From Actinopolymorpha cephalotaxi (GTDB lineage: Bacteria > Actinomycetota > Actinomycetes > Propionibacteriales > Actinopolymorphaceae), in the NCBI RefSeq assembly GCF_013408535.1, contig NZ_JACBZA010000001.1, positions 3,060,850 to 3,124,849 on the forward strand: 64,000 bases of DNA, written 5' to 3'. Below are positions 30,757 to 33,843 of the stretch, piece after piece (position 1 is the first letter of the stretch; every line of letters starts with the position of its first letter). The notes beneath the pieces are model-generated. The model had not been told where the DNA came from and did not search any database. It saw only the letters and a list, made by a program, of their open reading frames with translations. The position numbers and the translations under genes were made by a program.

Positions 30757-31107
30757 CTATCCGGTGTGGGCGACCGTCCGGACGGTCCCGTCCGGCCCGG
30801 CGACCATGACCGGGACGCCGGCGCCGGCCAGGTCGGCCACCGCGGCGACGTCCTCCGCCGGGGCCTCGACCGCCTCGGTGACCACGGCCGCCGCCTCCAG
30901 CCCGTCGGCGCCGCTGGACACGGCCATCGCCACCGCGAGCCGGAGAGCGGACAGCCGCAGCGACGGGAGATCCACCGTCGCGGCGGTGTAGGTGCGTCCG
31001 GTGGTGTCGCGGACGCCGGCGCCTTCGGCGGCCCCGGCGCGCGCTCTGGTCGAGCGGGCCAGGGTGATGATCTTGGCGTCTTCGGGATCGAGCTCGGCAC
31101 TGGTCAC
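30757..31107 (-). CDS. Cytidine-deaminase-like protein without zinc site
   Basis: The 116-residue protein keeps the fold outline of small cytidine deaminases (GVRDTTGRTYTAATVDLPSLRLSALRLAVAMAVSSGADGLEAAAVV) but lacks both the H/C-A-E motif and the P-C-x-x-C cysteine pair, so it cannot hold the catalytic zinc. Proteins of this kind sit next to era in many actinobacteria. A binding or regulatory role is possible. The GTG start has TAGGAT six bases upstream (leaderless pattern). Confidence 0.75.
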   Translation of the reverse strand: MTSAELDPEDAKIITLARSTRARAGAAEGAGVRDTTGRTYTAATVDLPSLRLSALRLAVAMAVSSGADGLEAAAVVTEAVEAPAEDVAAVADLAGAGVPVMVAGPDGTVRTVAHTG

Positions 31108-31255: not shown

Positions 31256-31277
31256 GGATTCTTCCGCGGAAGAATCC
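31256..31277. repeat. Copy 1 of a 22-bp perfect palindrome
   Basis: 11-bp arms GGATTCTTCCG / CGGAAGAATCC without spacer, containing CCGCGG at the centre. It lies in the 467-bp gap before the DUF222-HNH gene. Identical cores recur at 31401 and 32759. Confidence 0.95.
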
Positions 31278-31394
31278 ATGCCCGTTCCTCGACCCGGAAC
31301 AGTTGCCCGCCTGCCCGAACAGTTGCCCGCCCCGATCCGCTCCACAACCCCCTCGACGCCTGCTCAGCGACCAGACGGAGCGGCGAGCTCGACG

Positions 31395-31428
31395 GACGGC
31401 GGATTCTTCCGCGGAAGAATCCGCCGTC
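31395..31428. repeat. Copy 2 of the palindrome, extended to 34 bp
   Basis: The same 22-bp core (31401-31422) with six further paired bases on each side (GACGGC / GCCGTC), giving a perfect 34-bp palindrome about 150 bases before the DUF222-HNH gene. Apart from these two palindromes, I see nothing else gene-like between 31108 and 31574. Confidence 0.95.
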
Positions 31429-31574
31429 GTTGACGCTCATCGGATTCTGTCGTTCGGAGGGACCTCGACCCGGTGCGGCGCAGGTGGAGCTCTCGTCGGT
31501 CTTGATGAGCCTCATCGACCAGCCGGCCATCGGATCCCGGCTGCCTGTCGGTGGCCAGTTCTACCATCGAACGC

Positions 31575-33635
31575 ATGAGCGATTTCAATACCCCTGCGAC
31601 CGTATTCGCTGCCGCGCCGACAGACCCCTCTGGCCCCTCGCCCGCACCGCGGGCTCGGATTCCACGTCCGGCCATGCCCGACCAGGCAGACACCGGAGAT
31701 GGACCGCCACTGCCGACGTCCACCTCGGCGCCACCGGACACCGCACGTTCCTCAGGTTCGGCAGGAATCGCAGGAGCGACAGGTGGGCCGGACCTGGCCG
31801 GCACGCGTGGTGCACCCAGGTCGCTGGAGGGTCTGGAGGCCGAGATCTGCGACCTCGCTTCCAGGATCGCCATCGCCACGCACGAGTGGCTGCGGCTGAT
31901 CGTCGCCTTCGACCGCCGCGAGGGCTGGCGCACCTCCGGGTGCAGGTCCACGGCACAGTGGCTGTCCTGGCGTTGCGGGACGAGTCTGTCCGCCGCGTAC
32001 GAACACCTCCGGGTCGGACGCGCCCTGGAAGAACTCCCCAAGGTCGCCGCGGAGTTCGCCGCCGGCCGGTTGTCGTACTCGAAGGTGCGCGCGCTCACAA
32101 GGATCGCCGACGCCGACCAACGTTCGTCTCGCTCAGCCCGAAACCAGGCGCAGGAATCCGAACCTGTTCCGAACGGCGAACCCGCCGACTCGCAGAACCA
32201 CGCCGGCGAAGAGAATCGTCCAGACCACTCGGGCACATACGGGAGTGAGGACACTCAGCCGGAGGACGCGCATCCAGAGGACGCGCAGCCAACGGACGCG
32301 CAGCCAACAGGCGCGCAGCCAACAGGCGCCGAAGCGGAGGAAACGGAGGCCGAGGACGCCGAGGACGAGCTGCTCAACCTCGCGTTCAGTGCCACCGCTT
32401 CCCAACTCGACCGGATCGCTCGTGGCTGCGCCGCGGCTCGCTCGAAGGAGCAGAATCTCCGGCGAGCGATGCGGCGCGGGATCAGCTGGTTCTACGACGA
32501 GGACGGCTCACTGGTCATCCGCGGAAGGCTGGCCCCCGACGAAGGCGCGACGGTCGTCGCAGCACTCGAAGCGGCACTGGACACCTTGCTGGCACGGAAA
32601 CCCGAACCACCTGCGTCACCCGAACCAGCCGCGTCACCCGAACCAGCCGCGCCCTCCGCAGTACTGCCGGCCGGGGCCCGCCCCGATTCCGCGGGATCCG
32701 GCGGCGCCACCGGTCCTGCCGAGACGCGCGTGCACTCCGCGCCGGATGGCACCAGCCCGGATTCTTCCGCGGAAGAATCCGACCACCGACCACACCAGAC
32801 TCCGCCGGACCCCGCGCCCCCACGCCACACACCACGCGCTGTCCCCCACCGCCACCGCGCCGCACTGGCCGCAGACGCACTCGTCCTGATGGCCGAAACC
32901 CTGCTGTCCCACACCCCGGCATTCCTCAACTCCGCCGACAAATACCGCGTCATCATCCACCTACACCCCACCCAGCCCCCAAAGCTCACCCCGGCCACCG
33001 CCCCAACCACCGGCCAAGCGACTCCGCGCCCGGCGCCACGACAGCCCGCGTCCCTCGACGACGGCGTTCCACTCGCCCCCGACACCGCGGACCGCCTCGC
33101 CTGCGAATCGACCGGGACCGCCCTCCACCTCGACCCAGACGGCCAGATCCACAGCCTGAGCGACCCCACCAGATTCCCCCGCGCCGCAACCGCACGAGCA
33201 GTCAGAATCCGCGCACACCACACCTGCCAAGCACCCGGATGCACCACCAGACACGGACTCCAGATCCACCACGCACACCACTGGTCCCACGGCGGCCCCA
33301 CCACCCTGGCCAACCTCATCCTCATCTGCCGCTACCACCACTGGCTCGCCCACGAAGGCGGCCACACCTTCACCGCCCGCCCCGGCGGACACTTCAGCTT
33401 CCACCGGCCCGACGGCACCGAGATCCCCGCAACACCCCCACTGCCAGGCCTCACCGACACCACCCGCGAAGCCACCACCAACAACAACCTCGCCCGATCC
33501 GTACTCGACCACTGGGCCAACCTCCACCCCACACTCGGCGAAGACGTGCTCACCCCGCCCTGGTGGTCCGGCGACCCCCTCGACCTCCACTACGCCGTCA
33601 GCGTCATCCTCGACGCCCACGCCTCGCCGAACTGA
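31575..33635 (+). CDS. DUF222 / HNH endonuclease (13E12 repeat family)
   Basis: The 686-residue protein belongs to the multi-copy actinobacterial 13E12/REP13E12 family. After a Pro/Ala-rich N-terminus comes the DUF222 domain (LEAEICDLASRIAIATHEWLRL near residue 78, interrupted by low-complexity repeats, resuming ARGCAAARSKEQNLRRAMRRG near 280). The HNH domain follows near 545: CQAPGCTTRHGLQIHHAHHWSHGGPT, ANLILICRYHH. The nuclease cysteines and histidines are intact. Biological targets are unknown; these genes behave like selfish or phage-linked repeats. The third copy of the 22-bp palindrome is inside the coding region as DSSAEES. TACCAT seven bases before the ATG suggests a leaderless start. 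Confidence 0.9.
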   Translation: MSDFNTPATVFAAAPTDPSGPSPAPRARIPRPAMPDQADTGDGPPLPTSTSAPPDTARSSGSAGIAGATGGPDLAGTRGAPRSLEGLEAEICDLASRIAIATHEWLRLIVAFDRREGWRTSGCRSTAQWLSWRCGTSLSAAYEHLRVGRALEELPKVAAEFAAGRLSYSKVRALTRIADADQRSSRSARNQAQESEPVPNGEPADSQNHAGEENRPDHSGTYGSEDTQPEDAHPEDAQPTDAQPTGAQPTGAEAEETEAEDAEDELLNLAFSATASQLDRIARGCAAARSKEQNLRRAMRRGISWFYDEDGSLVIRGRLAPDEGATVVAALEAALDTLLARKPEPPASPEPAASPEPAAPSAVLPAGARPDSAGSGGATGPAETRVHSAPDGTSPDSSAEESDHRPHQTPPDPAPPRHTPRAVPHRHRAALAADALVLMAETLLSHTPAFLNSADKYRVIIHLHPTQPPKLTPATAPTTGQATPRPAPRQPASLDDGVPLAPDTADRLACESTGTALHLDPDGQIHSLSDPTRFPRAATARAVRIRAHHTCQAPGCTTRHGLQIHHAHHWSHGGPTTLANLILICRYHHWLAHEGGHTFTARPGGHFSFHRPDGTEIPATPPLPGLTDTTREATTNNNLARSVLDHWANLHPTLGEDVLTPPWWSGDPLDLHYAVSVILDAHASPN
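32259..32330 (+). repeat. 15-bp repeats inside the DUF222 gene
   Basis: Five degenerate units of the type CCAACAGGCGCGCAG encode PEDAH/PEDAQ/PTDAQ/PTGAQ pentapeptides within an acidic linker that splits the DUF222 domain. Confidence 0.85.
32759..32780. repeat. Copy 3 of the 22-bp palindrome, inside the HNH gene
   Basis: Identical 11-bp arms GGATTCTTCCG / CGGAAGAATCC, here read in frame (DSSAEES) in a variable Ser/Pro-rich linker between the DUF222 and HNH parts. Confidence 0.95.
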
Positions 33636-33680
33636 GGAGGCGGGCCGCCTCGTCGCACGACCCGGATACAGGTCACCTGT

Positions 33681-33740
33681 CGAACTCGAACTCGAACTCG
33701 AACTCGAACTCGAACTCGAACTCGAACTCGAACTCGAACT
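33681..33740. repeat. Hexanucleotide microsatellite (CGAACT)10
   Basis: Ten perfect copies of CGAACT, 45 bases after the DUF222-HNH stop codon. No gene clearly covers it; in the plus frame it reads Ser-Asn repeats. Perfect long microsatellites are rare in bacterial chromosomes and mutate by slippage. Confidence 0.97.
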
Positions 33741-33843
33741 CGAGGATGAGGGAAGTCGTCACGTCGCTCTCACCGATGACAGACACGCTTGATCGCACCT
33801 ACTCGAACGCGGAAGTTGTCATCGAGTCGGCGATCAGCGGACC

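Follow-up and report, generated by a model that had tools for sequence, protein, structure and literature searches.

ParB docks on parS and Noc docks on NBS. Many actinobacterial genomes contain dozens of DUF222-HNH (13E12) genes, which also occur in mycobacteria (REP13E12) and are, to our knowledge, among the most repeated actinobacterial genes of unexplained role. In the parts of the literature consulted, with preprints and subscription papers outside its scope, no function, DNA target or fold was found for DUF222. The consensus sites are TGTTTCAC-GTGAAACA for parS and TATTTCCC-GGGAAATA for NBS (PMC7383237), and Noc has about 70 dispersed chromosomal sites (PMC4331003). REPs are short palindromes placed at gene ends (PMC3733652).

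The window, i.e., the whole 64-kb stretch of DNA analysed here, contains a 22-bp palindrome, A (GGATTCTTCCGCGGAAGAATCC), in exact copies at 31256-31277, 31401-31422 and 32759-32780. The preliminary description had noticed no other copy in the window; none is present even when 3 mismatches are tolerated, and the expectation from 100 shuffles is 0. Copies 1 (31256..31277) and 2 (31395..31428) are located upstream of a DUF222-HNH gene (31575..33635, + strand, Pfam), between it and a divergent neighbour gene (30757..31107, − strand). The extension of copy 2 around its core at 31401-31422 was also confirmed, giving a perfect palindrome of 34 bp with an arm of 17, which as RNA folds at −33.9 kcal/mol (z −8.0). 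Copy 3 (32758..32781, 24 bp, arm 12) does lie in frame inside the gene, in the linker from DUF222 to HNH; it encodes DSSAEES, with PDSSAEES as the reading of 32759-32780. The codons used there are rare in this genome (TCT makes up 1% of the codons for Ser, GAA 14% of those for Glu and GAT 4% of those for Asp); therefore, the constraint on the in-gene copy acts on the DNA. Just 3′ of the gene, at 33680-33743, there is a perfect tandem repeat of 10.7 copies of the 6-bp unit TCGAAC.

The encoded protein belongs to the DUF222-HNH (13E12) type, with both Pfam domains above their cut-offs (DUF222, 54.9 bits, E 1.1e-14, cut-off 24.4; HNH, 23.8 bits, E 4.9e-5, cut-off 21.4). The DUF222 region consists of a first part (residues ~82-195; 31821..32162, +), modelled as a ParB/Noc-like helix-turn-helix, and a remainder after a low-complexity insert (residues ~265-323; 32370..32546, +), which is the tblastn block common to distant homologues (alignment A1). 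The HNH motif (residues 556-586; 33243..33335, +; Pfam) keeps its residues intact and conserved in alignment A1, and its closest solved domains are those of IscB and McrA. The putative nuclease did not match any known defence protein in PADLOC, and such an identity was rejected.

The model of the DUF222 N-terminal domain had a pLDDT of 86. Its top 11 VIA matches were all ParB, Noc, Spo0J or KorB, at Z 6.0-9.2, followed by unrelated folds at Z 5.0, on a scale where helical folds may reach comparable values by chance; the top matches covered about 100 residues at 2.4-3.5 Å and included complexes with NBS and parS. With the full-length model, ParB ranked first in Foldseek, with a weak E of 0.077, and Noc ranked first in VIA; ParB was absent among the 50 best Foldseek matches of the domain-only model. 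Alignment by hhalign to a profile of six ParB/Noc proteins paired the same helices, with an E of 0.0014 and a probability of 17%. These six proteins were taken from plasmid records because a search of the contig ends of four genomes found no ParB genes. By its predicted fold, the N-terminal domain is of the ParB/Noc/KorB DNA-binding type. The N-terminal CTP-binding domain of ParB was not found: Pfam gives DUF222 and HNH only, and the alignment starts at the DNA-binding helices.

In the source genome (G000; 6.86 Mb, single contig, with the window at 3060850-3124849), A was counted as the 18-mer ATTCTTCCGCGGAAGAAT (58 exact copies) and as the 16-bp core TTCTTCCGCGGAAGAA, with halves TTCTTCCG-CGGAAGAA (62 exact copies). 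Among the roughly 24 DUF222 genes, A is present in just two, the one in the window and its paralogue located at 6.607 Mb, which taken alone would argue against a link. The other ~22 lack A and have no other common palindrome beyond paralogy, and a link to 13E12/DUF222 genes in general was consequently wrong and was rejected; the link is supported for one subfamily. Orthologues of the subfamily were collected at E ≤ 1e-20 as 6 genes in 5 species (two in G000 and one each in G001, G002, G003 and G004), a set that undersamples the range of the subfamily. Every one of them carries A, or a version with 1-2 mismatches, in frame in the DUF222-HNH linker, where it reads DSSAEES or nearly so, and at least one further site upstream. 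The G003 orthologue is 54% identical, and two of the ten A-like sites in that 10.6-Mb genome are at this gene. Exact 18-mers number 18 in G001, 5 in G002 and 15 in G004, and none of 394 other genomes of the class has the 16-mer core.

Outside the genus, an exact scan for the 18-mer in 84,980 species genomes, made without the use of gene information, placed A inside a DUF222-HNH gene in five genome bins: two Geodermatophilaceae MAGs, 'Actinobacteria bacterium isolate 24', YP3.bin99 and the 'Deltaproteobacteria' MAG SJ496. The bins are incomplete, and the organism names are as labelled in the records. Sixteen singletons in unrelated, mostly AT-richer genomes were treated as chance and excluded from the evidence. 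In SJ496, three of the four sites in 8 Mb are at the DUF222-HNH locus (P ~2e-6, even with 30 such genes allowed), at in-gene positions that differ from those of Actinopolymorpha. The YP3.bin99 gene, apparently split over two contigs at the array, has at least 8 in-frame tandem copies of a one-base variant, TTCTCCCGCGGAAGAA, with 48-bp spacing. The same variant is the commonest dispersed form in that bin (15 of 26 sites), and it is absent among the G000 sites.

Some further occurrences were recorded. Tandem arrays of the variant with a 47-48-bp period in YP3.bin99 (L217:26-233, L218:45-156, L219:1823-1979) are found both in the DUF222-HNH gene and in intergenic DNA, where the array adjoins a TTGAC...GTCAA inverted repeat. 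One Geodermatophilaceae MAG has the exact palindrome, in frame as DSSAEES, in a sarcosine-oxidase-alpha-like gene (soxA; L076:7174). The palindrome also adjoins groEL, on its downstream side in G005 (L182:4037) and on its upstream side in the unrelated YP3.bin99 (L066:5210). The 18-mer was not found in viral contigs, and the DUF222-HNH gene had no plasmid homologue and one weak phage match; a phage or plasmid origin was rejected.

A therefore probably serves as a docking site, because it lies in and upstream of a nuclease gene in several distant bacteria and the protein has a predicted ParB/Noc-like fold. The fuller proposal, that A is a specific, parS/NBS-like DNA-binding site of the subfamily protein acting in autoregulation and at gene ends, is judged the probable explanation from the sequence comparisons and the fold model. 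The preliminary description had suggested a recognition or landing site of the nuclease; the orthologue sites, the five outside bins and the ParB/Noc-type model give 'recognition site' good inferential support, as a prediction for this one subfamily.

Outside the DUF222 loci, nearly all A sites are intergenic, mostly shortly 3′ of a stop codon (median ~48 bp), as placed with a simple codon-usage gene caller whose calls are approximate. The sites form at least 37 clusters around the G000 chromosome. Most sites are not close to the palindrome-bearing DUF222-HNH gene, which counts against the binding-site reading. Between convergent genes there are 27 of 49 sites, and convergent intergenic regions made up 16 of 34 with A vs 20 of 185 without A (≥60 bp; P 3e-6). 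The clusters showed no significant unevenness over the chromosome, so that an uneven, Noc-like spread was not supported; sites are present near the GC-skew flip at 2.6 Mb, although skew locates the origin and terminus roughly.

Another repeat (B), an imperfect inverted repeat or stem-loop of 49 nt (GAAGYGTGAAGAC...GTCTTCACRCTT), is present once or twice beside A sites in about 20 loci (L095:5908-6030, L108:6066-6187, L118:5879-6000 and ~17 further loci). The members of B pairs are 74 bp apart and often flanked by two A, forming an A-B-B-A composite of 230-330 bp that is also found in A. rutila. One convergent intergenic region (L159:3678-4347, L101:5856-6249) has six palindromes in G001 and one in G002, whereas G000 has three exact copies and a near copy there, and A. 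rutila a single exact copy and a near copy; by sequence comparison, this is a local expansion at a conserved site.

The position shortly 3′ of stop codons and the convergent excess would also be expected if A were a REP-like or terminator-like hairpin that works at the RNA level, either terminating in both directions or stabilising, with the DUF222-HNH gene merely containing copies; REPs are placed likewise (PMC3733652). The arms of A extend past the core by compensated pairs, with at least 7 extra pairs in 16 of 108 distinct sites vs fewer than 1 expected with the flanks re-paired, and the RNA folds are stable. This arm extension suggests, at the sequence level, a hairpin or cruciform role beyond that of a duplex binding site. 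A plain terminator, however, needs no invariant 18-bp core with a varying outer stem, and the hairpin account explains neither the rare-codon in-gene copies nor the association with DUF222 across lineages. In addition, no Rfam family matched A, so that a known RNA family was rejected, and the hairpin explanation as a whole is considered unlikely. Since the upstream sites resemble operators, A could instead be bound by a different regulator, encoded elsewhere, which would use A as its operator to control the DUF222-HNH gene and would also work at gene ends. G005, an assembly in 130 contigs, has A-like sites without an orthologue at E ≤ 1e-20, which fits this proposal and counts against binding by the DUF222-HNH protein. 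On the other hand, the differing in-gene positions in unrelated genomes and the variant shared by gene and dispersed sites in YP3.bin99 point to the DUF222-HNH gene itself, and no other gene was seen consistently linked to A, leaving an unlinked regulator quite unlikely.

The preliminary description had also considered a palindromic repeat mobilised by the nuclease, i.e., a small mobile palindrome copied as an HNH counterpart of REP-RAYT. Such a process would be in keeping with a repeat carried by one gene subfamily, with copy numbers between 5 and 58 in those species of the genus that have A, with local clusters and A-B-B-A composites that vary between species, and with the in-frame soxA copy. 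Against it, 28 of the 34 palindrome loci fetched from relatives are orthologous to G000 palindrome loci, and no insertion footprint or target duplication was seen at A sites. In alignments of orthologous loci, the A core is identical while the remaining intergenic sequence has diverged, a pattern that reflects constraint and not recent hopping. One of the SJ496 in-gene copies replaces sequence rather than inserting, with zero length change vs homologues (alignment A1). In the search for empty sites in relatives, proposed at the outset, orthologous sites proved mostly kept, and no clean empty site was alignable because the flanks are too diverged. Mobility driven by the nuclease is disfavoured by the kept positions and is the least likely of these alternatives; as an account of A it was not supported.

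If the DUF222-HNH protein binds A, the pair would resemble Noc-NBS and ParB-parS in the modelled ParB/Noc/KorB-type fold, in a perfect palindrome of 16 bp and, as for Noc (PMC4331003), in about 60-70 dispersed chromosomal sites. The A half-site matches the NBS half TATTTCCC at 5 of 8 positions, a partial match at a chance level of ~5%, and that of parS at 4 of 8. The pair would differ from both in that the protein has an HNH nuclease domain and no ParB CTPase domain was found, and in that A sites are at gene ends, within the protein's own gene and near the apparent terminus. With REP/BIME-RAYT elements, A shares a short, extragenic palindromic form, a position at gene ends that is often between convergent genes, clustering and a tie to one gene family; however, the A core is invariant, and the linked gene encodes an HNH protein with copies in its coding sequence. 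The GTAG/CGTC tag expected at one end is not a feature of A, whose flanks are variable; such a tag lies somewhere within 14 bp at only 18 of 56 sites. Y1 transposases (PF01797) were not found in G000, G001, G002 or G004, and those of the IS200/RAYT type in the genus are confined to the palindrome-poor G003 and G005 (loci L171-L174). A RAYT-type REP was rejected, since the A-rich genomes have no Y1 transposase. The window gene is a member of the 13E12/REP13E12 family by its Pfam domains, although most G000 paralogues have no palindrome and the literature consulted in part names no DNA target for the family.

In the proposed mechanism, the DUF222-HNH protein, probably as a dimer, would dock on A through the ParB/Noc/KorB-type helix-turn-helix of DUF222, as ParB does on parS. 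Through the sites in and upstream of its gene, the protein may regulate its own production, either as a repressor or by blocking elongation. About 35 other loci have A shortly behind genes; there the protein would affect transcript ends, in the simplest case by forming a roadblock or boundary in both directions, and the HNH domain might add a nick. The harmless action of a nuclease at some 60 chromosomal sites, for which the binding-site reading gives no explanation, counts against it. A broader and more tentative possibility, somewhat doubtful at present, is that the DUF222-HNH proteins as a whole form a large group of site-specific nucleases related to ParB/Noc. Every clade would then have a parS-like palindrome of its own, and the A subfamily would mark gene ends across the genome and regulate itself through sites in its own coding sequence.

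Given a defined candidate target, a domain model of ParB/Noc type and a site within the gene itself, a single binding assay could put the DUF222-HNH family to a direct test. If the binding-site explanation is true, the ParB/Noc family of DNA-binding proteins would gain a nuclease-armed relative, and a dispersed palindrome at gene ends would be explained.
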